In this document: positions 9,018 through 63,000 of the stretch, piece by piece
How positions within the stretch are numbered: position 1 is the first letter of the stretch
Layout: each line of letters begins with the position of its first letter
Origin: Branchiostoma floridae
Lineage: Eukaryota; Chordata; Leptocardii; Amphioxiformes; Branchiostomatidae
Direction: 5' to 3'
Assembly (NCBI RefSeq): GCF_000003815.2
Contig: NC_049996.1
Coordinates: 161,422 to 225,421, forward strand
DNA length: 64,000 nucleotides
The notes under the pieces: generated by a model
The model's database searches: none
Seen by the model: the letters and a program-made list of their open reading frames with translations, nothing else
Told to the model about the DNA's origin: nothing
Program-made: the position numbers and the translations under genes

Positions 9018-12000
9018 TGGTGTTACCAAGGCGACTGCGTGCCGTTCGGACACCGCCCAGAGGCGGTGGATGGCGGCTGGGGACCGTGGTCCGACTGGAG
9101 TGCGTGCACGCGGACATGCGGGATCGGGGTCTCTTTCTCGGAACGACACTGCAACGAGACTGCGTGAGTACTTGCTAAAGCATTTTGACCAGTCTAGTGA
9201 AATTAAAATTTCAATGACAAAGTTCAGAGAAAATGTACTTTGTCAAATAGAATTTCAGTAAAAACGCATGTAAGGTAAGTGTGGTGGGATCTTAAACGTG
9301 CTCGAGATCTCATATAGAATTAAAAATGGATGTACGTTCAAGTGGCACCCCGAGCAGGCCCTTGAAAAAGGTACTTACACCTGCATCCTCACACAACTCA
9401 CAAGGTATGTTTATTCTTACCCGGTACTATAGCTTTGGTTAGGGACATCCTCTGTTGGAGGTCCCGTGTTAGAAGAGAGCCACACCTCAAGCAAGGTTAA
9501 GATCCCACCACCCTTACCTTAGAAGAGCAGGGGTCCTTCCCGATGTGGGTGGATCAAACCCTACAGTCTAGAATCTGGGTTGACATCTTGAAAGGTGTTT
9601 CCTAATCCTTTCACTAATGTGGTACATCTCAGGACATGTACACAAGCTCTGGGGCTTGTACAAGATCCTCTACTATATTGTATGAAGAACTGTGAATGTA
9701 TCAAAGCCTGATTTTTTTTTTTTTTTTTTATATTTCCAGCCCGGCCCATGGAGGGAAATACTGTGTCGGGGAGAGGAAAAGATATCGAACCTGCAACACC
9801 ATGGTTAGTTTATCTTAAAGTTTACTATATTATAATACGGCCGCGTGGCGCCTTGGTACACCCGATCCCTCGATCTCGGAAGTTAAGCAACGCGCGGTCC
9901 GGATAGTGCTTGGATGGGGGACCAACCAAGGACGTCCGGATTGCTGTAGCCTCACGAAGTTTTCCACGAAATCGTCTTCCGGGAGGGACGTAAAACGGGG
10001 GTCCCGTGCTCGAGGAGTAATCTCCAAGCAGATCTTGCTGTGGCAAATGGGAAGGAGTTTAGCCGGCAGAGGAGTTATTGGCCACAGCGAAGATCTGCCG
10101 CAGAACGGAACCGCTCAAAGGATATTATCAGGCAATTNNNNNNNNNNNNNNNNNNNNNNNNNNNNNNNNNNNNNNNNNNNNNNNNNNNNNNNNNNNNNNN
10201 NNNNNNNNNNNNNNNNNNNNNNNNNNNNNNNNNNNNNNNNNNNNNNNNNNNNNNNNNNNNNNNNNNNNNNNNNNNNNNNNNNNNNNNNNNNNNNNNNNNN
10301 NNNNNNNNNNNNNNNNNNNNNNNNNNNNNNNNNNNNNNNNNNNNNNNNNNNNNNNNNNNNNNNNNNNNNNNNNNNNNNNNNNNNNNNNNNNNNNNNNNNN
10401 NNNNNNNNNNNNNNNNNNNNNNNNNNNNNNNNNNNNNNNNNNNNNNNNNNNNNNNNNNNNNNNNNNNNNNNNNNNNNNNNNNNNNNNNNNNNNNNNNNNN
10501 NNNNNNNNNNNTTTACACGCCGATGTCTGTCCGTCAAATGTGACGAGCGTGGGTCTTTGAACCGAATCCAAGCGTATATGATCGGTAAAGATTTGAAGTT
10601 GCAGACATGAAAAAATGATAAAGGAAGTGTTTAGTTAATACGCAGCTTTTATTGCAAAATATATACAAGTAACAACTAGATAATAACTTGTTATTTGTGT
10701 ACAACTGATAATTTCATATGTCGATACGTTGTCTTGGTGCGCTGTGATGCAGTCTGCTCCAGCGGTTTCGGGGGGAAGCCCCCGCTGTGAACTGGCGCAG
10801 CTCGCCGCGTTTGTCCCAGATACTGGCTCGGAAGGGTTGTAAAACGATAATCCTGGCCAAATTTAACCAATTTGCACGTTGGAGTTAAGTGGATACTAGG
10901 AGGAGCAGAAACACGTTTCTGAAAAGATCGCTCCTCCCGCTGCCTTTGACCGGTGCGTTCTGCGGCAGATCTTCGCTGTGGCCAATAACTCCTCTGCCGG
11001 CTAAACTCCTTCCCATTTGCCACAGCAAGATCTGCTTGGAGATTACTCGAGGAGGTGCCTCGACCACGTTAAACAGCCTCATTACTCATACTTGGGGTAC
11101 CTACTGGCTGGCAAAATACACCAGATGATTATTATTATTATTATTATAAGGTACAGTTCAGAATTGTTTTGTCTTCACATAATCTCGCTGTAATGCTAGT
11201 AAATGAGCTGACAGGCTCACTTTTGAAATACATTTTTTGTACTTTTCCCTTGTTTTGCACTGCTTTTTTCCCTGTTAATCTATTCTGCGATCATCATCAC
11301 CATCTGTGATCATACAAGTTTGATAAATGTTCATAATTAGCTCTGCAGCACTTAACGTTACCTAAGTCTGAGATCTTAGGGGCAAGTAGAAGACAAATTT
11401 GCAGGGCTCAGAAATGTTAAATGCAAAAACTGAGCAAAACTCAAGTATGCACCCTTAGCCAATTATGATCTTAGAATCATCCTCACCTCATCAACATATC
11501 AATGAAGGCAACTACATAAAATTTGGTCACTTTGCTACGAATCACCAAGGAGCTTTCATCAACTTGAAAGCTCCTTGGAATCGCAGGAAATCGAATTATG
11601 CGACCTACGCCTTGTGGAAAAGAGCATGCAGACCCTCATCTTAGCTGACTTTCTGTAGAATTCATCAGTCAGATATGGCTTCTTCTGTTAGAGAGAAGCT
11701 AATTTCAGTGTTTTGATTTAAAAGCTGGTAAATCACGATGTTTGCCCAATCACTAAAGAAAGACAGTGGATGTACTCTGAAACATCCGTTTGTCTCCAAA
11801 TCTAACATCCAGTTGCTTGAGAGTTTAACTATCATTTGGCAAAGTTCTAACTTCACGTATTGTCAAATGGTACAACTCTAGTTTCCTGAGTTCGAACCAC
11901 CTGTTTCAGCTGTCACCTGTCATACCTCCTAATCGCTTTACTTCCTACATTTTGTCTACAAGTCTCCCGCCTGTCAGCTCCTTCCGCAAAAACAACTCAG

Positions 12001-38488: not shown

Positions 38489-38861
38489 CATTCTCCTACA
38501 GCAGAGTACCGTCAGTCATTTATTCCTGACTGTACTCTGCTTTCCTTCCCTTTTGCCGGCGGTATTACCCGCCCTACTTATTACATATTAATGAGCTTGC
38601 CCTTATATGGGCAGTCAGCCGTTGGGGATCGGGCGTTGGCATGGTGAGCAAACAAAGTCATGGTAATACGTAACATGATTGGCTGATAGCTTCCCAGCGG
38701 CCTTTGCGAGACAGCTTCCGACAAAATGAAGCCCAAGGAAGGCCTGTTCTCTGATTGGTTGACAGCTTGTTTGTGGCGACAATCATAATACCCGTAGGTA
38801 GGGCCTGGGACAGCAGGGCCCCATAAGGTAGTGCCGTTGGGGACCGGGCGTTAGGAGGATG
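38489..38861 (+). mobile_element. 373-bp MITE, copy 2, with perfect 8-bp TSD
   Basis: Same sequence, length and orientation as 33784-34156. The TSD is ATAATTAC at 38481-38488 and 38862-38869. Confidence 0.9.
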
Positions 38862-39372: not shown

Positions 39373-39691
39373 AGAACTAGAATGGCAACATTTTCGAGAA
39401 AACGCAGGATATTTCCCTCCCAGTAATGTCTTTTTACGAATCCAATAAAGTTTATGCTGTCCCAAACCAGCAATTGTTCATTTTTTTACTGTAAAAGGTA
39501 GTATTTCGTTCACATTTGCTGTAACTGTGTTGCAAACACACGTTTCTCTTCCATCAAGGACACGACTGCACTACTGAAGTGACGGTACACTTACTGCTCA
39601 GACTTTATTCCCTTTATTCACCGCGTTATTGGCACATTTAAATTAAGTGTCTGATATACTCGTCATTGTGAAGAAGTCATGGCCGTATATT

Positions 39692-39776
39692 GACCCGCCC
39701 GGCTGGGAGTGTGTACAGTGGCCCGTGAGGTCATACCGGGTCAGCTGTAGGCGCACACTGCCAAACTGGCGGGCTG
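39692..39776 (-). ncRNA. miR-34-like hairpin 1 (divergent)
   Basis: On the minus strand the 5' arm reads TTGGCAGTGTGCGCCTACAG, with the putative mature product starting at 39763. The 3' arm (GGGCCACTGTACACACTCCC) pairs with it, and the base extends through GCCCGCC/GGCGGG. The miR-34 seed GGCAGTG is kept, but the 3' half (CGCCTACAGCTGA) departs from the usual TTAGCTGG. It is the most diverged of the five, so expression is less certain. Confidence 0.75.
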
Positions 39777-40605
39777 GATTCTTTGCTGATTCATTTTCAA
39801 TAGATGACGACTTCTACAGACTTCTAGGCGTCCAAATCAGGAAAAGTCGCTAACAAATGATTGTCTTCCACGGCTGAGTTTCTAATGCCCTCCGGGTCAA
39901 GAAGACCATGTTTTTGTGAGCGCTAGCGTTTGTGCGTGTGTGTGTTTGTTAGTCTGTGTGTGTGTGTGTGTTTGTCAACACGATAACTCAAGAAAGCCTT
40001 GGTGGATTGTCTTGATATTTGATATGTGGGTAGGTCTTGACGTGGGACTTTCTATAATATAGGGTTGGGCCCGCTGGCGGCTTGTTATGGCACTGCAGCA
40101 AAACGTCAAATTTCTGCATCTTTTATTGATCCACTCTCGGCAAAGTACGATTTCTAGGTGTAATTACATGTGCAGGTAGAAGTGCCCACTACAGTCGGTG
40201 ATTGTGAACTGAGCTCGAAGTCAACCAGCAAATTTGTTAGTCATTCTAATATTCTCAGGATGACAGCTCAACTTCTAAGGTGTACAATACAAAAATATGA
40301 AATAATATATTTACATTATCATAAAACACATAAGAAGAATTATGTAATAGTAAATAAAATTTACGAAGGCTTCTTTATTTGTGTTGTTCCTATTTCATAA
40401 AGGCTATTCAAATGAGCTATCAAACAGTGAAAAGTAACGTCAATGAAGGTTTGACATTCAGGTAATACTAGTAAACTACACCAAAAACAGTAATTCAAGC
40501 AACTGGATATGATTTTAGAAACGGCCAGACGTTATCGATATGTTTCGTCTGTGTCACCTTTGCGTATTAAGATGTTTTCTTCATTTTCCTCTCCGTGTTG
40601 TAAGT

Positions 40606-40687
40606 CCGTGTGTTATTACGGGAGTGTGTACAGTGGCTGTTATATTAGAAACGGCCAGCTATCCACACTGCCACAGCAACACACAGG
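40606..40687 (-). ncRNA. miR-34-family microRNA precursor 2
   Basis: The minus-strand 5' arm begins TGGCAGTGTGGATAGCTGG at 40673 and continues CCG to 40652. It differs from the conserved bilaterian miR-34 core (TGGCAGTGTGGTTAGCTGG) at one base over 19. The loop is about TTTCTAATATAA. The 3' arm CAGCCACTGTACACACTCCC pairs with it, and the lower stem extends through GTGTGTT/AACACAC. miR-34/449 RNAs repress cell-cycle and ciliogenesis regulators in vertebrates. Confidence 0.94.
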
Positions 40688-41357
40688 TAACCAGCCCTTA
40701 TTTCTTTGAAGATTGTGCTTCAAACAAGTTTAAACTAAGACCACAAAAGAAGAGATACATTTCGAATTTACCTTTTGTATATACATAATTTTGAAAATTC
40801 TTAAGGTAAAAATCTGTAGTCACAAACTACACGTTGAAATTGGTAGATATCATAAAATTCTAATTTACCGGAGGTTTTTGTCCATCCTGTCCAAATTAGC
40901 TATATAGATTGAAAACGAACATATATCCCTTTATAATGGATTGTTCAAGATACGATGATAAACGCACAAAACTGTTCAACTTTCTTGCGGCTTGTTCAAA
41001 AGAATTCGATACATTCCATCGCATAGATGAATTTGATAACATTCTAGAAGGAGATAACCCTTGACTGTGTACACATATACAAATATGTCAAACAATATTT
41101 GGCCTTAGAACCCAGTATGTAAACGATATTTTAAAACTCACATGCTGATATTTTCATATAACGTTTTGTCCATCCATTTGTATCCAATTGTCTGTATGTA
41201 TATATAGACTATACTTGCGAAAGTCGCGGTAGTTTTGATGTGTCAATAAAGATTACATACTACTTGTTTCTTATGTTTAACCATGGAGGTTTTATCTTAG
41301 GTGGAACCTCATTGGTCCAATATTGGCTTTAAAATATTTACATGATGACGTGTCGCG

Positions 41358-41434
41358 CTTCCGTAGGGCAGCGTTGATAGAGGGCCTAAAGAGCGACTCC
41401 TAGCGGCCAGCTAACAACACTGCCAGATGGCTGC
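41358..41434 (-). ncRNA. miR-34-family microRNA precursor 3
   Basis: The minus-strand 5' arm TGGCAGTGTTGTTAGCTGGC starts at 41425. The 3' arm CCTCTATCAACGCTGCCC pairs across a loop around AGGAGTCGCTC. The TTGTTAGCTGG part resembles miR-449 spacing. Confidence 0.92.
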
Positions 41435-41699
41435 ACGAGGTTTGGATATACCAAAGGAAATTCTAACGTCTTAAGTTGACATATCATAATGTTCGTATTA
41501 CGATAAGGGATAAGACGTATAGGTTTCAAAATTGTATGATTGAAGTAGAGTTATCATCAGTATCTCAACACAGTTGTTTTGCATGCGTAAAATGTATATT
41601 TTACATGTTTACATACTGTATATGTAACGTAAATACCTACAACGTATATTGTACTAATTGTACATAAATGAATGAAAAAAATACAATATCAATCTGCTC

Positions 41700-42030
41700 C
41701 CTGTTATTATTGGATGTTCCGATAACTTTGCATAATCAATGCGAAAGTGTCATAATTCCTTAGTCAGTTAGTGGTAAATGGTAGGAATTTCAAACATGTG
41801 ACATACATTACGTAAATGTTTAGGTCATTTTTCCTGTTGGATGCTCCAATGACTTGTCCGTCATTATCCAAAGTTATACATTGTATAATAGTCATTGGGA
41901 AAGTGTCATAATTCATTCGTGGTATATGGTAGGAACTTCATACTTGTGACATGTGTAAGTAAAAGATGTGCAAAACCACGTTGAAGTAATATTTCCTCTT
42001 GGATGTTCCGATGAGTTGTTGTTCGCCGTT
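41700..42030. repeat. Tandem ~150-170 bp repeats between miR-34 hairpins 3 and 4
   Basis: TTGGATGTTCCGAT near 41710, TTGGATGCTCCAATG near 41839 and TTGGATGTTCCGATG near 41999 mark three unit starts. The first two share AAAGTGTCATAATTC, TGGTAGGAA and TGTGACAT downstream. The third leads straight into hairpin 4. Confidence 0.7.
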
Positions 42031-42033
42031 ATT

Positions 42034-42118
42034 CCGTGCCGTAGTAAGGTAGTGTGAAGAGAGGCCGTCGCGGTAAACATCACCGCGGCCAGCTATTCAC
42101 ACTGCCACACCACAACAC
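42034..42118 (-). ncRNA. miR-34-family microRNA precursor 4
   Basis: The minus-strand 5' arm TGGCAGTGTGAATAGCTGGC starts at 42107. The 3' arm GGCCTCTCTTCACACTACC pairs closely, and CCGCGG/CCGCG closes the upper stem over a short GATGTTTA loop. The lower stem extends to GTGTTGTGG and its partner TTACTACGGCAC. Confidence 0.94.
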
Positions 42119-43076
42119 AGAGTTAGGAGTTAGGGGTCGTCGTCCTGGACCGGTGTGAAGTCAAATACGTGCCTCGCCAAATAAATGCCCCGTGTGGCAT
42201 TAGGCTGGGTTTCTCGGTCAAGGTTAATAGAGGTTTAATCTTTTTTTTATGTTTCTCCACATTGCGTGATCGTTTTCTTACTGTCTAGTCACTCAAATTT
42301 GCTTGACCTGTTTTTATTTCAGACACTCACGTATACGCATGACCGGCGATAGGAATTGTGGGTAATATGTCAAAGGTGAGACCCCTGACTTGTAAACAGT
42401 TCTCGTTTCAACCATTGTCCATATTTTCCCGTATTAAACTTAACAAGGCAGGCATACGACATTTTCACGACTATCCCAAGACACAGAACATAAACCACCT
42501 GTTTTACATAAAAACGACATTTCAACAATAGTATACAATAGAATTCCAACAATAGTTTACGAAACAAAGTACATTGTACCAGCTGGTTCATATTCAATTT
42601 CCTACCGCTCTTATCACGGCCATCTCAACGGCTGTCATGAAAACACACACAAACACAAACCAAAGACATTGAAGTAACCACGTTGTAGCATACACACAAA
42701 CATATACACATACCTAGGACATGCAGTAAGCCCCACTTTTGTAGGCACCGCCCTACGGTCTTACCTCGGGCTGTAGGCTAGATTTCCTCGGCACTGGAAG
42801 CTTCTGTCGCCGACCGGCCAACTGAGTCCTCCCGGTGACTTTTACATGCTGATATTTCTAAGAATTTACTTGTTCAATATAGCGAATACTGAATGCTTTT
42901 TGATACATACGTGACTACTACGTATATTGTGAAGTAGTTTGCATTTTTTAATTCCTAAAATTACCCCCTATTGGGAAATAAAGGTTCCACTGGAATACTA
43001 GATTGCAAAGTGCCAGTTAAAAGTGCATCCCAAAATGCAAATGAAGTCCAATTCAAACACTGGTACGATGTGGCAC

Positions 43077-43162
43077 AGGTGTGTTTGAGAGGGCAGGGCG
43101 AGTAGCTGCCGTGACGTCATAATCAGACGGCAAGCTAATCACACTGCCTCACAACCACACCT
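43077..43162 (-). ncRNA. miR-34-family microRNA precursor 5 (5' A variant)
   Basis: The minus-strand 5' arm AGGCAGTGTGATTAGCTTGC starts at 43149. It begins with A as in vertebrate miR-34b/c rather than T, with the same seed. The 3' arm GGCAGCTACTCGCCCTGCCC pairs with it, and the base AGGTGTGG/CACACCT is nearly perfect. It is transcriptionally first if the promoter lies at 49.7 kb. Confidence 0.92.
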
Positions 43163-43959
43163 CAATTCATACTGAAGAATAGTTATACACTTCCGAAAAT
43201 AACGTAATTACGTCAGTAGCCAATCAACTGCCGTCGTTACTAATTCGATTGATTTTCAAAGTACACAGGATAAGATACAACAGATATATTTAAAACATTC
43301 CGATAAACAATGATGCAGCAATGAGGAAAAGATTCAAGGTGGAAAAGAACAAACAATGAACATCCGGTACAATTCCACGATTGCTAGCTACGTTACACGC
43401 ACGTAGAACTTACAAGGGTCGGCCAGGTAAATTGCAATTTGTTTACACAAATATGTTTGAATTAAAGAAACAACAACAATCTATCACTGTATTGGAAAAA
43501 AAGAGGAAACAAGTTTGACAAATGAAATTAATATATCAGCCATGTCACAATCATTCCCCAGTACCACAGTACAGTTCATATCATACGTTTACTATACTGT
43601 ATAACAACATAGAAGTATTTTACACATAACACAATACACATGGTATAGATACACCTAAAATTTGATGAGATTCACACTTGTACAGGGCGCTGAATTGGTC
43701 TATTCGCAGCTTTGTCTATAGGTGTGTCGAAGTCACGCATGGCCAAATTGGAATTTTATCTATGAATATCACTTCCCCTTTTCTGCCAGTGTAAAATTTG
43801 TCTGCAAATTTGTGCACACTACGTCCTCCTTTCAATACCAAAGTGGTCACAGTTCATTCGATTTAAAACAATATCGGGTCCGGTCTTTAATGAAGGAAAG
43901 AAGACCTTCATTGTACTTTTTTTGCCCAACAGGGCTAAGAGCAGGTCATAACAAACACA

Positions 43960-43992
<33 letters not shown>

Positions 43993-44247
43993 AATGTATC
44001 AACGATCTAGTCTAGTACATGTATGCAAATTCGGCTTCTTCTCGCTTCTTGGAAATGGTAAAAATTTTCGGGCTTGTATTGGTTTAGTAATAGTCCGTTT
44101 GTCAAAACGCATGAAGAAAATAAATTAATCATTTAATTTTTTGGCTACCCAGTCTCTCATATGTCTTAAGTGATAGAATCTACTTTCTTTATAAACTAAA
44201 TATGATATTTCTATCATTAACAAACACAGTACAATCTACGATAAACA

Positions 44248-44858
44248 GGGAACGGGTTTTCTGCGCGTGGAGAATTTGCGCGTGCGCGTGAAAAATTTGC
44301 GCGTGAAAAAATAAAGTTCCTGAAATATGTCAGAAAATGTGCAGCAAGGAATTCTAAGGCAGAAAAATTTGATCCTATGATATAATTTCCCATATGTAAC
44401 CAGAATTTTTGGTTTGAAAATATCCAGTGATTTTTAGATCCCTTGGGAATAGATTCATTTGCATATTTTGAACAATCCAAAATCCCATTAATATCACAGA
44501 AATACATGGAAAAATTACTTGTACGTGTGTGTATGAGGTTTTATATTGTAAAATGTTACAATTTGAGGCTTTTCTCCATTCCAGAAGCTTCATTTCATCT
44601 TTTTTGAAGCAGATTGTTTCACGCGCAGATTTCAAACTTTTTTGCGCGTGAAAACTTAACATTTGAAAATCACTTGAAAATCAATCAGATCGACATTTTG
44701 TACCCTAGAATGCAACAATACAATACTTAATTCCATTCTGTGCCATCTTGTTTCAGCTTTTTAAGTTTAAAACTGAAAATATTTTTTTAATCCCTTGGGA
44801 ATCAGCTAATTTGCATATTGTCACGCGCACATTTTTCACGCGCACAAAACCCCATCCC
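44248..44858. mobile_element. Element with GCGCGTGAAAA-rich inverted ends and 9-bp TSD
   Basis: The left end GGGAACGGGTTTTCTGCGCG and the right end, reading inward GGGATGGGGTTTTGTGCGCG, are inverted. CGATAAACA lies at 44239-44247 and 44859-44867, a perfect 9-bp TSD. GCGCGTGAAAAATTTGCG-type motifs recur at both ends and near 44620-44655. The interior is AT-rich with no coding signal. Confidence 0.85.
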
Positions 44859-45524
44859 CGATAAACATATATAAAGTGCACTTCAATGGCTACCGTGTTT
44901 TTGGTACAAAGTAAGGCTTTGTTCCAGAGCAGTGCTGTTATGCCTTCCTGATTTGATTCTAAAAGAATCTTGTGCATGAAGATATATGTTACATACCAAA
45001 TGGCGAGTGTTCAACAAGTTTGAAGTGCCTGTATTCCTTTCGGTAGAGTTGACAAGCTTCTGTATAAAAACAAAGTTGAGCGGAGGAGTTTAAAATTTCA
45101 CCAGGAATGTAGTAAGCGTCGCCCACGAATTCTACTTGAGCTGTTTCCTAAATTATGTACGTGGGCGAAGGCATCGTTTTGGTTGGAATCTTAACTCCTA
45201 CCGCCATCTTTTTGTCGGTCTTTGCAGATCACAAAATATATTGCGTTCTATAAAGAAAGGGCTCAGGGGAAAATGATTTTTAAACATTGTTGTATGAATT
45301 TTGAACATGTGTTAGTTCTATACGGGTTGTCGGGAAAGTACCCTGGGAGCCAGACAGGACCGGGTAGCTAGCGACTTTTGTTCGGGGATCCAAGGCAGTC
45401 AGCCCGCAGAACTCACATTAGTGCTCCGGGGGAGTTTAAGCCTGAAGGAGTTATCGCTAAACTGTCCTAGCTGGCCAATCCCGGCTGGATCCCAGGGGAA
45501 TCGGGAAAGAATCATGGAAAATTT

Positions 45525-45665
45525 GAAAGAACCGGTGTCACAGTAAAATTACACACCAGGTCAACCGAGCAAAAAAGGAACCGGTGTCACAATAAAATTA
45601 CACACCAGGTCAACCTAGGAAAACAGTAAAAGCCGATGTCACAGTAAATTTACACAAGATCGACC
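45525..45665 (+). repeat. Three ~55-65 bp direct repeats
   Basis: GAACCGGTGTCACAGTAAAA then TTACACACCAGGTCAACC occurs at about 45530, 45580 and (as GCCGATGTCACAGTAAATTT) 45630. No gene is seen from 44870 to 48400; a copy of the 5990 repeat lies at 46145-46215. Confidence 0.75.
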
Positions 45666-48410
45666 GATCATAATAGACTTTGGAACTGTTAACATTTTCT
45701 TATCTACCGTTTAATCTATTTTAACGACTGTTTATAGCTTTAGAGGTATGAAATTATGACACTAAAAACTTCACAACCTACAAATGTCACAACCTTTTCC
45801 AAACACTGCCATACTAGACATATAAAACGAGAAATGATCCGACACAAAGACTTGTTGACCTTAGGTTTACGTACAATTGTACACAATGTGAACACAGCTC
45901 TTTAAAACACGTTCAACATGTTGTACTTACCTCAAGTACGTATCTTCTTAAATGTGTTTTCCCGAGTTCCTTGAGAATCTTGTTTACACTTCACTCACCT
46001 CACAAGTGCCTCACTGAAATGGCCAGATAACCATTCTCCACTTACCAGCTTTGGGTTGCTTTATACTGGGCCCAGTTTGCTAAGTATATCGTCGCGATGA
46101 ATTCAATGAATCAAACCCCGTAAAACTTCCCCGGCTTGCGCTGACGAACTGGGCGGGTGGGATACACTCCTAGCACCGCAGAAAAAGCAGCGTTGCTCCC
46201 GATGGTATGCTACTCAATCACTCAAACAGGCCCTTGTATATACTGTACCACATGTGACGTAGCCGTCTACCACAACACCTTGGAAAACGCCGCAAAAGGA
46301 CAATTAGGTACATTGTTTAGGGGTTCAAGCTTGCCCAGGCTTGTCCGCTCTACCCGATCTCTACCCCCGCCTACGGGTTGACCCCGTCTCGTCCAAGTTT
46401 GACCCGCGTGAAAGAAACGAGCCCAACTAACCGGAAAGCGTGGGCGCTTGTTTCTAGGCAGACTCTCTAAACTTTCCTTTGAGTGGAGTAGTTGGGGTCA
46501 TGCCATCAGTCGATCAGATACGATTACAAGTGTACAATGCACGCCACGAAAAACACCCTAGTTTCTCAGTAAATTGCGATAGGGAAACGGATACAGATGC
46601 TAGAATGGCGTAAATTATATCAATCGTTGAACAACAACAATAAAATCCTCTTTTTCCACAGATCGAAAAACACTTACCCCAAATCCAAGAGGTACAATGC
46701 AAAACAATATGTTATAGTCATGTTAAAATTCAGCGTTGATTGAACAAGTGACCTCAAAGTCTATAGCTATGTTTAAACAGTAGGTCACAGAAAGTTCTGG
46801 AAAGAATTTTAACCCCACCTCACCTATTAAACATCCAAGGCTTCGCAAGACTTTGATTTTCGGCTACAAAAAAAGATAGAAATACCTTTAGACTTTTGAA
46901 TAGTTGATCTAGACATCTTTTCTGTTGAGAGATAGCAAAGCTGTATGTATTTTTCTGCCCTAGCTAGAGGGGTTAGGCCGTCTACTCAAATGATACGCCC
47001 AGCAGTTCAGTTCCAGACTTGCACTCTGGCTGTGATTACGTCATCGCCGGGATTTCCAAGCGTCGGGGAAGTCCCTTGGACCGAACCATAACCGTTACGT
47101 TTAGGGGTGTCACAGTTTAATTTATCGATAAAATCTCACCAATCGCATTCTTTACAGGATATAAGTAACATATAAAAGTGTACAATTGTATAAAATACTG
47201 TAAAATTATATACTCTATGACTTTTTAAACTGTTGTAGTAGGGTAACTTTCTCATTAAACACCCCTGTGAAAAAATGTTGGAGTCTTGTTGGCCGCTAGT
47301 CCAATCACGTGGTCGCTCAATTTTGCAGTGTAATGCTAGCACATGGCCGCCATGTACCATAGGTTCCAACGCGGCAAAATCTACGTCGTCAGTATTACGT
47401 TCGTAAAGGATGACTCATCACAGTGTGGTTCACATGTGTCCAGGAACTAGGCCATGTGGGAAGATTCTAGAACTAGTTCGGACTAGTTAGAGTAGGTCAA
47501 AACCGGTAAAAGGTGTTGAAAGGCTAACACGATATAACTAAATATTTGATTTTGAACACCTTTGCACTACAGTCGAAAAGGTACAGTAGTAAAGTTGAAT
47601 ATTTACAGCATTACTCTGGTAATTTTTGATATTGTTGTAGTTTTCGCTGTTTACAAATAAACACAAACAAAAAGAAGAAAAACATCAGCAGCAGCAAGAC
47701 TAAAGCATGAAAATATATTGAAGATCACAAATGATATTTGGGCTCCCTTGGAAATCAGTTTTATCAAAACTGTAGGGACTACCCTGAAAGATTAATAAAT
47801 AAAACAACACAAATTAAAAACGTTAAAGTTTATTAAGTGCAGTCACAAAAATATCATGGACTTCAACTCACTTGCTTGAAACACAAAATTTTGAACTATA
47901 ACACGTTAGGCCAGGTTTTCCCAGGAAGTGATCACGGTAACCCTAAAGATAAATAGATAAATAAATAAAATGTGCCGCGAGGCATATTGTCCTGTATTCT
48001 AAGAAGTAGAAGAAGAACAAGAAGATAGGCTAGCCGTGGGGTGAATTCTACTATTAGTTCTGTGAGGGCTCATAATAGGTATATAAGGCTATAAATTGTA
48101 CCTGCAAAATTAGAAAGTACTGTCCACAAGATTCACCCTAGCTAAACGTTTCTGACCCTCTCTAACTTTGCCCCCAAGTTTTGGGCGCGGGAATATTTTC
48201 TGGTCAGCAAAAAAGATCAGACGACTGCTCTAGTGATAACAAGTTTGCGGTCAACTAGTGACGTCTGGTGGTGGACAAAGGACGATTAAATTTCACATCT
48301 GTAAGCTTTTTTCTGTGCAGGGCCTTTACAAAGATAAACAATAATACGGTCTGAGGTCGGTCGAGTTGTTCTTGAATGACTCACACTCGCACCAAAACAA
48401 CATCTGTACC

Positions 48411-48594
48411 TACTCTCCAAGCAGAGGTTCGGCTCTGAATGTTTTGGACATGAGTTTAGATGTTTTTGTTGGGTTTTCTATGTTTCACCGGTGCCGGCAG
48501 ACACGAAAAAAAAAAAATCGGTGCAAAATAAAACCTAACAAAAATGCATAAAAACACGTCCAAAACAGCCAGGGCCTAACATCTGCTTGGACTA
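48411..48594. mobile_element. TARTCTCCAAGCAGA-family MITE, copy d
   Basis: TACTCTCCAAGCAGA opens and TCTGCTTGGACTA closes the element. Interior blocks GTTTTGGACATG and TGTTGGGTTTT pair with CACGTCCAAAAC and AAAACCTAACA. Flanks are ATCTGTACC (48402-48410) and AACTGTACC (48595-48603), a 9-bp TSD with one mismatch. Confidence 0.8.
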
Positions 48595-49449
48595 AACTGT
48601 ACCCCCATGGGGGTTGAAACACTATAATTTGGGGAGATTGAAAACATATGTATGCAGTTACACACAGGCCACAAACAATTAAGGGATAGCACAGATTATT
48701 TTGTCAGAAAAGTTTCAGACACAAAAACAACGGCCAGTGTCAGACATGTTTTCAGACATACCGAGCTCAAACCCAGACAAGTCAAGACACGCCTACGCGA
48801 TCGCATGCCCAGACGCGCTCTCAGAGTTCCCGCGAACATAAAACATAAAACAAAATTTTTTACAAATAAAACATCATTTTATCCTCAATACCATGCTTTC
48901 AAATAAATTTACCTAATGCCTCATTGACTTGAAAACGTTAAAATAAACGCAGGTGACCAAATTTGTACGAATGATGCAAGTCGTACCAAATCTAACGCAA
49001 CCATCATATCATACTAGTAATTTAATAGTACATTCGTTTTAGCTACTCGTTGCTAAATAAGAATTCCTCCAAAGAAGAGTCACTAGAGTACAATCAGGAT
49101 ATATCATATTTCCCGTCTTTAGAAAAATGGAGCTTTTTAACACCCATCTTCTAATTGTAAATTGTTTTCCACCAAAGAAGTGCAAATTACATAGGCGAAA
49201 AGTTTCCTGTGCCAGTTACTTCATAACAATTGTTCAGTGGCAAAAGAACGTGGAAAATCATGCTTTAGAATCAATATTGTTTGCATAGGAGAAATCTAGT
49301 TTAATAGCAGATATTCTTGATTCATACAACAAACATACACCACATAAAACAAACTTGAAAGTAGATTAAAGTCTGCGGTATACGTGTGGTTTGTCGACTG
49401 CAGACGTATCTAGACCGTCGCCCAACAAGTAGCAAGAAAGGCCACCTAC

Positions 49450-49683
49450 CTTTACCCACATGTCGACTATTTCAAACAAGCCATTCGCCCAGTTTACACA
49501 CAAATGTTGGACGCTCCACACATAAGTTGAAAACTTCTTGGAAAGAAATAAAAACAAGACTTGTTTTGAAACCCGGCTGTGGTTGAGAGAAAAACACATG
49601 GTGTTTTCTGGCCAGTGACTAAACTTCTGAATGGACTGTTGGCAGGAATGCGTATTAGATCAGATTCTATTTATACAGCCAAT
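49450..49683 (-). promoter_or_regulatory. Candidate TATA promoter and first exon, probable pri-miR-34
   Basis: On the minus strand ATTGGCTGTATAAATAGAAT places a TATA box (49668-49675) just below an inverted CCAAT (49679-49683). Transcription would start near 49640. A sequence reading TGGGTAAAG/GTAGGTGG at 49450/49449 is a good splice donor, giving a ~190-nt first exon with no convincing protein. The next minus-strand features are the miR-34 hairpins, 6.3-10 kb away. No transcript evidence is available. Confidence 0.45.
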
Positions 49684-50229
49684 GAGCTGACAAATAGGAG
49701 ACCAGGACGACTGCAGGTTTGGACTTGCCCCATTCCTTTTGGGACGCTCTTTCAATGAGAGCATACCACTAAGATTTTAGGGGGACATGTTACCAATAGT
49801 TTAACGAATCTTGACGATTTTCAAACAATAATTGCAACAAAAATATAATATATCTCAAACAAAATTAATGTACAATGTACATTTTGGCTTTAAAATACTA
49901 ACTTAATCCTTTTTTTAAAGGTGTAAAAATACTTCATATTTTATATGTCCCTAGTTTGTATATTCGACTCTTCGAGCTTGGTATCGGCTAATTTTATCAC
50001 TAGGGATTTGAGATACTTTGTTGTATAAATTGTTTGCTTTTAAAACCCCTTATGTCTTCAAATATTGAATCATTACCATGTCATTTATATATCAAAAAGT
50101 ACTTTGGAGTATATTTAGTATTTATATTAATTTAGTCTACTATAAGTGGTGTTTATTTATTTTGCACTCCCGTAAAAATTATAAAGTGATCCACTCCCTT
50201 GGAACCAACTCACGCGCAGTTTGGCGAGA

Positions 50230-50295
50230 CTTCTGACGTCACGGCGTGGCCTTTTCACTTCCGGCTGTTTTCAGAGTTGTCGTGAACAGAACAAC
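50230..50295 (+). promoter_or_regulatory. SEC61B core promoter: CRE, ETS site and pyrimidine initiator
   Basis: TGACGTCA (50234-50241) is a full CRE palindrome. CACTTCCGG (50256-50264) is an ETS/GABP site in reverse. GCCTTTTCAC between them resembles the TCT initiator of translation-apparatus genes. The ATG is 30-45 bp downstream. There is no TATA box. Confidence 0.65.
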
Positions 50296-53411
<3,116 letters not shown>

Positions 53412-53937
53412 ACAGGGGGCGCTCCTGCACTGTCTACCAACTCCAGCCAAACACCAATCACCAAATAGATCGCCACAAACACTTTAAGTCTCTTGTATTG
53501 TGACATTTTTAACTCAAAGCTTTGGAAAAATGTTATCCCCCCCTCCTGCAAAGTAAAAGAAGTCTGTGTGCCCTGGAATTTTATATTCAAAGAAAGTACC
53601 TTTCTTTTTCGACAGGGAAACTTTATTTTCTTTTGTCAATGAACAAAGTATTGTTGTGGGCATTGTTTCAGGTACGAGAGTGCCAAGTAAATAAATTAAG
53701 AATTGTTTTCATTATTAATTAATTAAAAGTAGTATGTAGTAAAACAGGATATTTTTGAAGGTCATTCCAAGTTTTGAGTTCCGACTACGTTACAGTATGT
53801 GTACCAATGTCGTTTGGTACCTTCTATATCTTGATGTTGTAACTCGAGGTATTTGGAGAGTAACACACTACATGTACTTTTCTTCTCTGTTCAACATGTT
53901 TACCTTTGTAAGCAAAACTTGATTGTGATATTTTGAC

Positions 53938-53943
53938 AATAAA
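53938..53943 (+). terminator. SEC61B polyadenylation signal
   Basis: AATAAA, about 530 nt after the stop codon; an earlier AATAAA lies at about 53690. Either could be used. Confidence 0.6.
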
Positions 53944-54523
53944 TTCTCATATACCGGTGCTTAGTCGTTTCATTGAATTCAATACATGTATTATTTCATC
54001 CAAGAATACTAGTAATTTCATCAGCTGGTAGAATATAGGATATTTGAGTTTTATTTCTCTTGCCTGCTTACATTTCGATGTCTATCAGACATCTTTCTCA
54101 GTGCTTTTTACTGGAGTTTTGATTCTCACCTATCCTCCAAGTAGAAGTTTGGCTTCGGCTGTGGTTTTAGGTGTACTATCTATTCATATCCGCCAGCTAA
54201 GAAGAATGTCTAAAAACGTTTAAAAAAAAAAAACTTGAGCCGACCCTCTGCTGGGATAGTATTTCTCATAGCTATATATATGAAGCTAATATCTTTGGAT
54301 TGTGTTCTTGCTGTACAATAAGAGTGCCAGCTAACTGGGCTATACATATAATAGAAGCAGAACTCCAGTCAGAAGCTCTACCTACTGTCAAATGTGGTCT
54401 AAGTTAACAGAGGCAGTTAACACAGTTCATATTAATATATGATTTTAAGTGGGAGTTGGATACTGTACCAAACAGAATCCTTTGTAGCAAAGCAAACCAT
54501 TGTTTTGAGAATCGCCAATTCAC

Positions 54524-54701
54524 TAATATCCAAGCAGATTCTATAGAGCCATCAGATACTGTAGTATCAAAGCTGGCCAAGGAGTATAGCCGGCCAAAAG
54601 GAGTCAGACGATACACTCTCCTAGGCTGGCTTCACTCCTCTGTCAGCTTTTGATACTATTTATTACTATCTTATGCTACCGTAGGATCTGCTTGGAAACT
54701 A
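54524..54701. mobile_element. TARTCTCCAAGCAGA-family MITE, degenerate copy e
   Basis: TAATATCCAAGCAGA opens and TCTGCTTGGAAACTA closes the element. GTATCAAAGCTGGCCAAGGA and AGTATAGCCGGCC are shared with 37551-37718. The flanks CCAATTCAC and CCATTCAAA only partly agree, so the TSD has decayed. A related end (TCCAAGTAGAAGTTTGGC) lies at about 54137. Confidence 0.7.
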
Positions 54702-54717
54702 CCATTCAAAAGTTTGC

Positions 54718-54790
54718 ACAGTCAGGTCCGTCCAGACCTGGACCTGAACTGGACCTATACTGAATTTTCAGAACTCGTACCCACCCCTAG
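54718..54790. mobile_element. Solo hAT-like terminus
   Basis: The end CGTACCCACCCCTA, preceded by AGGTCCGTCCAGACCTGGAC, resembles the termini of the hAT element at 60583-60977 (GGTACGCACCACTA). A further related AGGTCC-rich stretch is at 17975-18050. Confidence 0.5.
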
Positions 54791-54807
54791 CCCTTCTACT
54801 TTTAGAG

Positions 54808-57606
54808 TTAGATTTTATATGCGTGAGCCACAACTTGCTCAGGTTGTCCTTTCTGTTCCTCTACCCTCTTCATGACAGCTCTGGAGTATTCCGCAAGATA
54901 GTCGTCATGTTTTTCCTCTGGTATGTACTTCAACTGGGACAAGACTGGACGCAGCACGCCCTTCCACCCCTCCTCGTCTAATGGTTCGTCCTGTGGTGGA
55001 CCCGGATGACCTTGACATTGGTTGACCTTGAAGCCACACTCCTCTAGTAGAGACTGCATGCCCTTGATGTTGTCGCTAGGCCATGGGTAGAGATTGTACT
55101 CAAAATCCTTAAGAAAAACAGAGAAGACTTCAGTGTCAAATTCAGTGTCTTACAATAACTGGTACAGAAGTTTAACTGCACCCCCATTTTCCAGAGTATT
55201 TTGTGCAATTATGCGGATGGTGCAACAATGCGAAGTTATCTAGCTGGACTACAACACCACAGGGTTTGGTGATTCCGTGCTATTAACTGAAGTGTGCGGT
55301 TATCCGTTGTGCAATTAACTGGCTTCTACTGTATAAAGTCTTACCCTGGATGCCAGACTCTTTTCAAGGCCTTAACACAGGCCAACTCCTCAGCTCTATG
55401 AATGCAAGTTTTTGCTAGGCTATGAAGTTTTGGTAGGCAACGAAAACTAGGAGACTTTGCGTGACTTGCTTTTACACTGTTTATCGATGCCAAAATGTGA
55501 AAAAAAGATGCAAATATATTGAAAATCATTTGCAGATCTCAATTTGAATGATGATGAATTTTAATAAAGATATTTCTATGAATGAATAATATTTGTATTT
55601 TGGGTGCCAAAATTGTACAATAAACCCCTTTGAACCATTTTTAAAATAACTTTGCAAGATCTTTAGGCTTTTTTTAGCATCATTTTTCAACAAAAACAGA
55701 TGTAAATTTCAACTCGAATGAAGATTTTGAAATTCATAATATTTTCCATTTCGGCGCCCAAATTGTACAATACTACTGGTAGTATGCCCCTTTCAAAAGG
55801 GGTTTACAAAAAAGACTGGGCTGTGAAAAAAATTTACCTTTAGGTAGTGCCTCCAGTTGGGGAGGTCAATATCGCTGACACCTGCAGTGTCCAGTAGACA
55901 GTTGACAACCAGCTGGCCACCTGGCTGCAAACAGCTGCAGATGTTTTGCATACAGGTGCGCTTGTCTTGGATCCAGTGCAGCATGGTGAAGCAGGTGGCT
56001 TTGGTGAAGAAACCCTTCCACTCTGGTCTCATGGCCGCGGGATCGGACGCATCGGCAACGTAAAATGATGTGTTTTCCGTAGAATTGTGCTCTGTAGCAA
56101 AACTGGAAGTGCAAGAAAATTTTCAGACATGAATACATGTAAAACTCAACTACATGCTGTTTGTGTGTTCTCTGTAGAATTGTGCTCTTGCAAAACTTAT
56201 ATAATTATCCATTTGACTCATAAAGTCAAAATTGAGTGCAAACTCACACACAGGACTTGGACTTCAGAAGTTGAACACTCATCCATGCACTGAATCCTTT
56301 AGGCCAGTTTGATTCAATGATATGGAGAACATCTACATGCGCATCAATTTTTGCCCATTTCCAAAAAAAAGAGAGAAGATTATGACCAAACTCTACAGCA
56401 TACAATGCAGTTGCAAGATGAAACATATGCTGTAAATTGAAAGAAATTTAAGAAAATCAAAATCTTAATGTCTTAAAGTCAATTCAAAGGCCAAAAAGGA
56501 AAATGTCAAAGAACAAAAATATAAAAAGAATCTAAATAACTGTTCTGTAAAAAGCGTGTTTAAAGTCAACCTTCCTGACTACTTGGATTTCATAATGATA
56601 TCAGTTTTTTTTAAGCCAAACTTTTTTATACTGGCAATTTTGCATCAGTTTTCGGATTCCGAATCCCAGGGCATGTCATCCATATAATCAAATCAACATG
56701 GCCTTACCAGGTATCAGGTCTGACTCTTACCGGATAAAGTTTTCTGACAGGTCAAATCCCACCACAGCCTTGACCCCTGTCTGTTTGGCCATGAACTTAG
56801 TGACCTCTCCTGTGCCACACCCTACATCAAGTACAAGGTCACCCTCCTGCCACTGGACATACCTGTGTGGTCAAAGGTCAAGTAAAGTTATGTGTGGTTT
56901 AGGTACAAGGTAGTCTGAGATGGAAGATGTTGCAGGGGTTTTATGTTTGTGTTTTCTTGACTATTCTTCACCATGAACTTAAAACAACCGTGATTATTTC
57001 CCTTTTTACAGTAAAACCCTGAGTGGCAGTTTCAACTGTGACTTTATATCACTGCCACAACTCAAAATCTCCTTGAATATTTCCACTTTTACAGTAGGGT
57101 CTGTGTTCAGTTTGTGCTGGGTATGCATTTATATGTCTTTACCATAACAGGTGCCACAAACACATCATAACAATGTACAATTTATAATGCGTACATGTAG
57201 CCAATTGTTAGACAATGGCGTAAACGGGAGAAAACATTAAGTTTTGCTCTGGTTTTCAGTTTGCGGTCACCAGAGGTATGATGAAAATTACAAATATAAA
57301 AGTCACTGCAAACTTTTTTTCCACTGACAAAAGTAATGGTATTATAGTCCTGCATTAAATGACAGGAATCAAACCTCTGACAGAGGGATTTAGAGAAGAA
57401 TGAAAAGATAGTGTAAAAGAGTGTCAGATCTGGGTTTATGGAAAGGGCTTTTGTAGATCTGAGTAGCCTGACGTGATAGCCAGCCCAGGTAGACAGCCCA
57501 GCCCTTTCAGTAAACCCGTCAGATCTTACTTGTTTATAAGGTCCATTGCCACATTCTGTTGTTCCCCTCTGTTGCTAGCATACTGTTCAGCATTGTCCAT
57601 ATCCAT
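54808..57606 (-). CDS. SAM-dependent methyltransferase, juvenile-hormone-acid-methyltransferase-like (complete, 4 exons)
   Basis: Coding exons in transcript order are 57606-57530, 56862-56731, 56102-55838 and 55107-54808. All are GT-AG, and they join to 257 residues plus TAA. The N-terminus MDMDNAEQYASNRGEQQ matches the Y-x-x-x-x-x-QQ entry of this family. Motif I is LVLDVGCGTGEVTKFMA (residues 35-51). The acidic SAM contact is in VVGFDLSENF (59-68), motif II region FYVADASDP (83-91), then CFTMLHWIQDKR (107-118) and LQPGGQLVVN (128-137). The C-terminal part (WPSDNIKGMQSLLEECGF) forms the usual lid region. It is a cytosolic class I O-methyltransferase fold. Insect JHAMT methylates farnesoic or JH acid, but the substrate in a chordate is unknown. 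The start is the first ATG of an exon whose acceptor (TTCTCAG) lies 13 nt upstream, implying a 5' UTR exon not located. Confidence 0.9.
55165..55331. mobile_element. pogo/Tigger-like MITE, degenerate copy 2
   Basis: The right end GTGCAATTAACTGGCTTCTA then CTG/TA and the left end TACAGAAGTTTAACTGCACC mirror the element at 21850-22023. It lies in the last intron of the methyltransferase gene. Confidence 0.6.
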
Positions 57607-60022: not shown

Positions 60023-63000
60023 TCAAACATCGTCTGTCCGGATCTTACCCTGCAGAACACAACGTTAATATGATTAAAAAAGTGTAAAATTTTACGTGAT
60101 GTTATAAGCAGAAAGTATATGAAAAGATTTACTTTGTTTGGCCATGGCTTACTTTGGAAAACTGGAACAGCTTCCGCGCTTTCTTAATTGCTGCAATCTC
60201 TTCTGCTGTCTTCTCATTCTGTAGGTAACGTCATCACATAGTTATCAAAGTTTGTCCTTTTGATTAAAAGAGACGTCTTCATTAAGATGATGTTTGGTTT
60301 TATCTATGTTACGTACAAGTTAAGATCGTATATCCCAGCATGGCGGCATACATCAGCTCCTGTGGAACTGGGAAACATAAAACTCTTTGTATATTCCGGT
60401 TTCTTAAATCTTATTCCATACATTTAAGATGTATGGGCCAAGTCTTGGTTATGGTCATCGAGTCTTACTTGAACAGAAATGTGTACACTCGGGAAGAAAA
60501 GCCTTAGAAGTTTGGTCCGCTACTTTGTAGCGTAGCCATTTTCACGGATCCGGATCCCATTGAATGCAGGGAGACGCGGGACTAGTGGTGCGTACCTAAA
60601 CTTATATTCAGGTTCATCGATCAGGTCCGGACTCAGGTTCAACAGTTCAGGTGATCATTGCATCATTGCATGTTATGTACGCTAGAAAGTTTTCTTTTTT
60701 GAGGGGGAGGGGGTATGGTGCATATAAAATTGCATGTTAGCATGAACTGAAATGCAATGTGAAAAATACATGCAAATTATATACAGCCAGTGTAAACACG
60801 AAATGTTTTTTGTCTTTTACTAGTGTAAATTTCACTGTCTATGGAAAGTTTTAGATGGTTTAGAACAAAAAAAGGGAATATAAGTGACAGATAGCTTTTT
60901 GCAAGTCCGGACTTGGCTCCTGACATTTAGTTTTTTTTTTGACAATTCCAAGTCCGGGCTTTAGGTACGCACCACTACGCGGGACACTTTGGGTAGACTG
61001 TCCAGAACGTGCCAAAATGGAGATGTTTGCAGCATCTTCAACACGTCAGACCGTTTACGATTCTTTAAATGAGTGTTATAATGTTACAATAATATTGTTT
61101 TCGTCATCTATTTTTGAACGTCAATCAACATATGATTTAGAATAATGTGATGTCAGGAAAGGCAGAGTTAGCTTTTCAGCGAAAGCATATTTATTGAACA
61201 ATAGGCATGATCATAATCCTACCCGGCGTCTGTTGCTTCAAGGTGCACTTCTGTACTTGGTGCATTCTTCGTTGTATTCGTTTATTTAAAGTGCCAACTT
61301 TAAAAGAAAGATTTTTTTTATTGCAACATTAATACAAAACATAGTGGTGCCCCCATTCAAGCACACAGGCTTATATTAAAGACACCACTAGACAAAATAA
61401 CCACACAACATAGGACAAAAAAGATGAAATGGGTACGGGAACGCCTAATTCTAAAAAGAAACGGACGAATAAACTTATGTTACCAATAGTAAATGATAAG
61501 GATAGTCAAAAAGCAATTTTAAAATCGTTTTGTTTCGGATAAATATGATTGAGTTATGGAGAGAATTTGGGAATTTATATCAGATGTCAGTAAAGCCGAT
61601 CCTTTAAGTAGCAGATAAACACAACTATCAAATAACGAATTTAAATCTAACATAGGAATATTCAGGTTTTCAAGTCAGTCTAAGAGGAGTGTACGCTATT
61701 GAACATAATTAGGACAGTGAAGCAGATAATGAGGAATGATTACACCAACCTTTTCCTTCTCTTCCATGTGTTTTCTGCTGTAGCCAGACACACCGGTGCC
61801 TCCCAGTGGTGCCGCAAATCCGTTAGGCCAAGTCTAGGAGGCTGTGAAGTAGTTTTTCGTTCTCTATAAAAATTTAAAGGAAAAGCGTTTATCCTCAAAT
61901 AAGGATGTTGTTTTCCATCCAGATTAGTAGAGGTGCATGTGGCTTTAGTTTGGCTCACGTTTAAGTCATTATGTATGAGGTTCAAGCAAAGAAAGTAATG
62001 CCATTGGTTTCATAACAGGCTCCAAATTTCATTAAGTTAAAATTTTGGCAGAAGAAATGAAGAGATACATCCTCTTGAGATTGAAATATCCCAAATTGTT
62101 GGTTCTTTATTTAGCAACGTCTGTGCCACATTTCCACTCATTCGATAACAAGATACGATTTGGCTCTTTTTTGGTGATTGTTTCATTACATACTATTACA
62201 TGTGAAATCACCTCAATGTTACAGACACTGCTTCATTTCGCTTCCCGAAAGTGTGTTAGTAAATTGTAATATTCATAGAGTATTATAATTCGTGCAGTAT
62301 GAATTGGCAGTTAAGTCACTACACAGACCCCCTCCCCGCCACAATTATACACCGCTAAACACAATTTAACATTAGACACGTAGTACCCCGTCCGCCAGTT
62401 TAGTTATAAGGTCAGAAGGTCATGGGTGCTTTGTTGGGTACAGTAACAAGGTAAAAATCACTGTATCCCGTATTAGCTCTTTTGGTTGGAATTCACATTA
62501 AAGGAACAAAATAAAAGACTAACGGGCATCCCTAAAGCTATACATGTGTCACCTAGCACAGGTATCGCTCCTAAATAAACGGAAACTTTTAAATATGTAA
62601 CCGTTAGTGCCTTATCCGCCATTTTGGTACAATGTCAGACAGTCACAGGTGCTTTTTAGCTGCAGGTACCATGACAGGGTAAACAACACTACTGGCTCTT
62701 TTCTTTCGTGTTCACAGTGGAAATTAAAGAACAACATAAAATGATACGGGCCATCCTTAAAGCTGTACAGGTGTATCTAAGGTGGATATCGTCTCTGTTC
62801 TTTAGTAAGTTTACTAATTAGCAGTGGAGTAACAAGGTAACCATGTATACACACGCAGGAGGGAGTTGGCAGCAAATAAATTTAAGTACCGAGATTCAGT
62901 TAGCTCAAATACAATTATATAAGTTAGAGTCAAGCTGGCCAACATCTAACGGTTGTACATGTACTGAATAAAAACACCTATAGTGAGTTTTGGATGGTAG

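Follow-up and report, generated by a model that had tools for sequence, protein, structure and literature searches.

The 64-kb window of the Branchiostoma floridae genome analyzed here (C18:161422-225421; coordinates below are positions in this window unless a contig such as C18 is named) carries a minus-strand cluster of five hairpins, h1 to h5 in transcription order, which taken as a whole are very likely to be tandemly duplicated miR-34 precursors. A p53 response element with no mismatch and no spacer, GGACAAGCCTGGGCAAGCTT, lies on the same strand at 46327..46346, 3.18 kb 5' of h1. The cluster is present again, in inverted orientation, elsewhere on C18, with mature starts from C18:3241053 to C18:3244479. 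The heptamer GGCAGTG occurs nine times in the window, and five of these occurrences belong to the cluster, between 39756 and 43148. The total is ordinary (5.62 expected per 64 kb; nine or more in 12 of 100 shuffles) and the grouping is unusual: among 300 first-order Markov windows, no 3.5-kb stretch had more than four on a single strand, a count reached once. The first-pass annotation of this DNA had named five minus-strand heptamers and five mature starts, and we found all of them where it placed them.

All five hairpins lie on the minus strand; their mature 5' ends were predicted from the fold together with the spacing of a downstream CNNC motif, and a 2-nucleotide (nt) overhang was assumed. 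Hairpin h1 (43084..43155; fold z -5.33; Rfam mir-34, 44.1 bits, E 1.7e-07) has the predicted 5p product AGGCAGTGTGATTAGCTTGCCG at 43149-43128, a 3p arm at about 43110-43088 and a CNNC at 43070-43067, 18 nt past the 3p end, the latter two sets of coordinates being derived by hand. In the remaining four hairpins the CNNC begins 17 nt past the predicted 3p end. Hairpin h2 (42033..42121; z -6.73) is matched best by mir-449 (34.9 bits, E 4.8e-05), with 5p product TGGCAGTGTGAATAGCTGGCCG at 42107-42086, 3p arm at 42066-42045 and CNNC at 42028-42025. Hairpin h3 (41359..41432; z -4.96; mir-34, 35.3 bits, E 5.3e-05) has TGGCAGTGTTGTTAGCTGGCCG at 41425-41404, a 3p arm at about 41386-41364 and a CNNC at 41347-41344, and h4 (40612..40680; z -3.88; mir-34, 41.3 bits, E 1e-06) has TGGCAGTGTGGATAGCTGGCCG at 40673-40652, a 3p arm at about 40639-40617 and a CNNC at 40600-40597. 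The divergent h5 (39692..39776; z -2.98; CNNC at 39685-39682) has a 5p product that starts TGGCAGTGTGCGCCTACAGCTG (39763) and contains a 4-nt bulge.

GGCAGUG occupies predicted mature positions 2-8 in all five 5p products, and the first base is U in four and A in one (43149), as had been proposed. A further proposal, that each seed is followed by a variant of GTG-NTTAGCTGG, holds for four hairpins and fails for that at 39763, which reads GTGTGCGCCTACAGCTG. Its description as a divergent first member is likewise half right: the hairpin is divergent, and it is the last of the five if transcription proceeds from the minus strand.

The pairing of the arms is borne out by folding. Every one of the five heptamers sits in the 5' arm of a hairpin, and the cluster hairpins are stem-loops with two arms of ~22 nt, with minimum free energies of -37 to -46 kcal/mol (one span each) or -38 to -51 kcal/mol (best of 20 spans). 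None of 200 shuffles folded as well as h1, h2, h3 or h4, and 1 of 200 did so for h5. The other four GGCAGTG places in the window fold poorly, reaching -17.0 to -25.3 kcal/mol as the best of 20 spans. None of 2000 Markov 90-mers built around TGGCAGTG reached -38 kcal/mol, the lowest being -36.0 kcal/mol, a slightly unequal comparison in that each of these was folded over a single span.

The assignment to the miR-34/449 family made in the first-pass annotation is supported by the folds, by covariation, by the position of the CNNC and by Rfam matches that are significant, if below cut-off, for four of the five hairpins (h1-h4, 34.9-44.1 bits, E 1.7e-07 to 5.3e-05). CNNC 16-18 nt beyond the Drosha cut is the site bound by SRp20. 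With a background of 0.114 per three-position slot, its presence at the expected place in five of five hairpins has p ~2e-5, and its placement supports the minus strand as the precursor strand. The motif is also at the expected place in both other miR-34 hairpins tried, and is missing from a look-alike on C11. Covariation was assessed in an alignment of six hairpins, the five of the window and one at C18:3255952, with 25 consensus pairs. In 15 of the 25 pairs both bases are changed in at least one sequence; 85.3% of cells are paired, and none of 500 shuffles was as high on any of five measures. Sliding the alignment by 1-3 columns left only 33-50% paired, a contrast biased in favor of the consensus structure, which these six hairpins had themselves served to define.

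Two other members of the family in this genome match small RNAs of Branchiostoma belcheri exactly and lend the assignment further support. The 5p arm of C18:3255952, which lies beyond the second copy of the cluster, 11.5 kb past its h5, is identical to novel_mir52, a sequenced small RNA in Table 2 of PMC5650284, and the 3p arm of C17:3397470 is identical to bbe-miR-34b-3p from the B. belcheri library in the same table; Table 1 of that paper, as far as the available text goes, gives nine conserved microRNAs (miRNAs) and does not include novel_mir52. The C18:3255952 hairpin lies outside the window and has no second copy in the genome, our genome-wide searches covering an assembly of 513,431,437 bases in 431 contigs. 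The set is thus larger than the five copies first counted: five are indeed in the window, with six on C18 when the two cluster copies are counted once, plus one on C17. Like the family as modeled in RF00456 and like bbe-miR-34b and novel_mir52, the window hairpins have GGCAGUG at positions 2-8 of the 5p product, a similar hairpin size, a 3p arm and a CNNC; they differ in forming an array of five to six tandem copies, in their lower Rfam scores, and in h5, which keeps little beyond the seed.

A whole-genome search with the Rfam mir-34 model (63 of 64,851 first-look candidates scored, listed to E 10) gave 38 matches, none above cut-off, and may be an incomplete census. The seven best are C17:3397463 on both strands, C18:3255946, and h1 and h4 of both clusters. 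Exact genome matches to GGCAGTGNNNTTAGCTG number seven: h3 of both copies, the sixth member, a hairpin on C11, and three poor folders, two on C11 and one on C12. The C11 hairpin (C11:2305770) was rejected as a miR-34; it is without a CNNC, and by eye its 3p arm looks like B. belcheri novel_mir48 shifted to a different register. On the strand opposite the mir-34b locus at C17:3397470 there is a match to Rfam mir-4856 (35.9 bits, below cut-off), a family that may be a relative of miR-34.

Several observations weigh against reading the five hairpins as miR-34 genes. Hairpins h1-h4 all fall under the Rfam gathering scores (53.4 bits for mir-34, RF00456; 60.4 bits for mir-449, RF00711), and h5 has no match to the Rfam models, and the two members of this genome that match sequenced B. 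belcheri small RNAs likewise stay below cut-off, at 51.5 and 51.9 bits. The reverse complements of some hairpins also score, weakly, as mir-34 or mir-449. In the genome search three palindromic elements outrank h3, and the 38 matches include neither h2 nor h5. Strings of 18-19 nt from the five hairpins matched no amphioxus paper in a full-text search, in which the matches were to honeybee, silkworm and mouse. Finally, between the two copies the arms are not significantly more conserved than their surroundings: in blocks of at least 90% identity they differ at 1 of 176 positions and sequence outside the hairpins at 108 of 4904 (2.2%), which is in the right direction (Fisher p 0.19). That count leaves out h1 and other blocks below 90% identity; the h1 arms are unchanged by eye, which would make it 1 of 220. 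Whole hairpins differ at 3 of 337 positions (p 0.12).

The mammalian miR-34 genes are well-known p53 targets, and the p53 motif was chosen for this reason. We scanned the cluster and 5 kb upstream of it for p53 sites with spacers of 0-13, for 20-mers with up to three mismatches and for X-boxes, so that the tests comprise two motifs (p53 in two forms, and the X-box) and two regions. With any spacer of 0-13 allowed, the element at 46327-46346 is the sole perfect p53 site across the window and a partly redundant 291 kb of other loci scanned. When up to two mismatches outside the fixed C/G are allowed the window has four sites, three of them at 46.3-48.8 kb: the perfect element, a 20-mer of the ACTAGT type with one mismatch (47470..47489) and a 20-mer with two (48775..48794). 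Two such sites are found in 80 kb around the second copy and none in 30 kb around the C17 miR-34. Among 3000 local second-order Markov sequences of 6 kb, a perfect site appeared in one, and none had two sites with at most one mismatch or three with at most two, as observed, with the caveat that the 6-kb length and the weaker-site counts were set after the sites had been seen. In six-kb tiles of other DNA, 1 of 30 has two or more sites.

Whether the element is functional is finely balanced. That the motif is a chance match, the cluster being controlled otherwise and the hairpins being ordinary miR-34 genes, has in our view an even chance of being correct. Genome-wide there are 98 perfect sites per 513 Mb and 103 matches to the reversed pattern, so most perfect sites must be chance occurrences; several motif forms and two regions were tried, and the region was stretched to 6 kb afterwards. 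At the corresponding place the second copy is interrupted by an N gap, which leaves no comparison for the element. Also to be counted against p53 control are the lack of any perfect site in the 80 kb around the second copy and in the 30 kb around the C17 miR-34, the one-mismatch site at 47470-47489, which may be a piece of a repeat given that sites of its type recur in tight groups at other places in the genome, and, for regulation more broadly, the absence of a ciliary X-box from the cluster and the 5 kb upstream of it. Against a chance match stands the rarity of the site: at one per 5.2 Mb, the probability of a perfect site upstream is 0.0011 for 6 kb and 0.0006 for 3.2 kb, figures that still have to be scaled up by the small number of tests performed. 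The motif was, moreover, picked on the mammalian precedent (in the available part of PMC7226610, mammalian miR-34 genes are p53 targets), and another perfect element lies near a p53-family gene. Exons of this family are found on C12 and C14, and among the sites listed is one at C12:501730-501749, 3,659 bases before the first matched p53-family exon (505408-507251).

We therefore put forward only tentatively, on the strength of the motif, that a p53-family protein may control the miR-34 cluster through 46327-46346. At a similar level, somewhat below even, we place the broader idea that a p53-to-miR-34 circuit was present in the chordate ancestor, with the amphioxus p53-family protein driving a tandem miR-34 array and the p53-family gene itself bearing an element. 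The amphioxus cluster shares with mammalian miR-34 promoters a perfect p53 site upstream of the miRNA, and on the plus strand the CTTG/CTTG cores of 46327-46346 resemble the p53 site of human MIR34A; it differs from those promoters in that its element is a putative p53-binding site, is separated from the first hairpin by 3.2 kb and accompanies a predicted promoter. The element and the hairpins are on the same assembly contig, so a misplacement of that contig would leave their linkage unaffected.

The promoter is predicted near 46.2 kb from local signals. A candidate promoter and first exon (45925..46244, minus strand) contains a TATA-like sequence at 46242 and donor-like sequences at 46045 and 45930 (GAG/GTAAGT), and two AATAAA hexamers at 39604..39618 (minus strand; a third is at 38524) mark a candidate end of the primary transcript just 3' of h5, a weak indication, since by our estimate chance alone would produce such a hexamer roughly once in every kb. 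A dispersed repeat of ~96 bp occupies 46209-46114. Scoring 40 of 45 candidates gave at least 38 further genomic matches to it, 74-92% identical, and a comparison with Rfam families to E 1 gave none; the p53 element lies outside this repeat. Under the proposed mechanism, a p53-family protein would bind 46327-46346 and activate the cluster in response to stress, in the way that p53 activates mammalian miR-34. A single minus-strand RNA polymerase II transcript, starting at ~46.2 kb and ending at ~39.6 kb, would probably carry all five hairpins, and Drosha, aided by the CNNC, and then Dicer would free 5p products with the seed GGCAGUG. Given this common seed, the same CACUGCC-bearing mRNAs would be expected to be repressed by all members, with 3' pairing differing among them; h5 would have kept the seed and had its 3' half rebuilt.

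Near-matches to a TTAGCTGG-like 3' half are found in h1-h4 and not in h5, so that h5 is placed in miR-34 by its seed, its position and its 3p identity with h4 only. Eighteen nt of its 3p arm (39705-39722) are identical to the 3p arm of h4, a direct repeat at 100%, and because of the bulge the automatic 3p call for h5 is 18 nt long. It is possible, if rather doubtful, that h5 is a decaying pseudogene or yields mainly the 3p product that it has in common with h4. The identical 18 bases fit the latter, and decay fits the missing Rfam match, the weakest fold z of the five, the 4-nt bulge in the mature arm and the fact that the sole arm change between the two copies, at mature position 9 of h5, shifts the fold from -38.0 to -34.1 kcal/mol. 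Against decay, the seed is intact in both copies, the CNNC is at 17 nt in the window copy, and the stem is still long.

The two copies of the cluster are probably alleles. The window sequence 39654-57596 aligns inverted to C18:3244588-3224723 in blocks that are mostly 93.5-97.8% identical, with two at 85% and 81% and with N gaps in the second copy. The shared stretch is confined to one assembly contig (38395..57942), which holds the cluster and the p53 element and is bounded by two 100-N gaps; the window copy is therefore probably a misplaced allele, that is, an allelic contig of the C18:3.24 Mb locus placed at the wrong spot. A true segmental duplication in inverted orientation, leaving the animal with two clusters and ten hairpins 3 Mb apart, is unlikely. 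Both do lie on one assembled sequence, in opposite orientation, and the neighboring sequence at 27.0-28.5 kb, on the preceding contig, is without a near-identical second copy (best 88% over ~0.85 kb at C18:1.80 Mb, plus short repeats). But the fit to a single contig between gaps argues against duplication, as do the degree of identity and the 2.2% of substitutions outside the hairpins, which look allelic, and the available text of PMC12373286 cautions about the high heterozygosity of lancelet genomes and about duplicated regions in them being overestimated. A patchwork is also suggested by 60500-62000, which matches C9:4905735-4907234 at 99% identity from end to end, a copy that points to misassembly or recent duplication. 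The simplest reading is that the end of C18 carrying the window is a patchwork holding allelic contigs.

That the hairpins are remnants of inverted-repeat transposons resembling miR-34 is highly improbable, for although palindromic elements with a GTTAGCTGG stem do score against mir-34 (C4, C7 and C17:17.8 Mb), those elements have no GGCAGTG, a pattern built from h1, h2 and h4 matches six places in the genome, all within the two clusters, and the CNNC and the covariation fit miRNA genes. The Rfam mir-34 matches on C4, C7 and C17:17.8 Mb were accordingly rejected as family members. Elements with the GTTAGCTGG stem that score against mir-34 were also seen on C11.

As a tandem expansion of miR-34, the cluster resembles the vertebrate mir-449 (RF00711) and mir-34b/c clusters in having several hairpins with the same seed on one strand, and h2 scores best with mir-449. 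The first-pass annotation had called it a lineage-expanded counterpart of these clusters; tandem expansion stands, and correspondence to mir-34b/c or mir-449 is conjectural. We take members of the BTG and geminin families, CDC20B and CCNO to be the neighbors of the vertebrate clusters. BTG exons were found on C13 and at C17:8.64 Mb, and one exon of the geminin family on C2, none of them by the cluster, in an exon-wise search that can miss genes and that covered the BTG and geminin families and not CDC20B or CCNO; within that scope, shared synteny with the vertebrate clusters was set aside. The C17 BTG exon shares its chromosome with the single C17 miR-34, 5.2 Mb apart. The split between U and A starts, proposed as a sign of orthology, is a weak one. 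We infer that the amphioxus expansion is independent of the vertebrate clusters.

Amphioxus miR-34 is already known (bbe-miR-34b of B. belcheri, Table 2 of PMC5650284), and the cluster is a further example of a known family, the p53 element being the point worth testing. In the available text of a 2009 B. belcheri study (PMC2728532), 17 compact miRNA clusters are reported, one of them with five members, miR-s4 to miR-s8, and a smaller miR-34 cluster may be contained in its figure or tables. The name miR-34 does not occur in the main text of PMC6775235 or PMC5359183. PMC8789304 counts MIR-34 among three miRNA families for which no position on the ancestral chordate chromosomes could be assigned, and a duplicated, possibly misplaced contig is a concrete assembly issue that may bear on this placement. 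A full-text literature search on a p53-miR-34 link in amphioxus gave no answer among the matches listed. The amphioxus element makes the age of this link directly testable. The amphioxus lineage splits off just before tunicates and vertebrates; if p53 control is true here, the p53-to-miR-34 link may be older than vertebrates.

Elsewhere in the window, the minus strand, which is that of the cluster, carries a methyltransferase-domain exon (55793-56122). The surroundings of the second copy contain exons of rhodopsin-type G-protein-coupled receptors and a 909-amino-acid open frame that has no Pfam match. On the plus strand, a degenerate copy of 5S ribosomal RNA or a 5S-derived element is present at 9833-9952 (46.6 bits against an Rfam cut-off of 38), and 1238-1624 encodes a phosphatidylinositol-specific phospholipase C exon (Y domain, E 5.1e-18).

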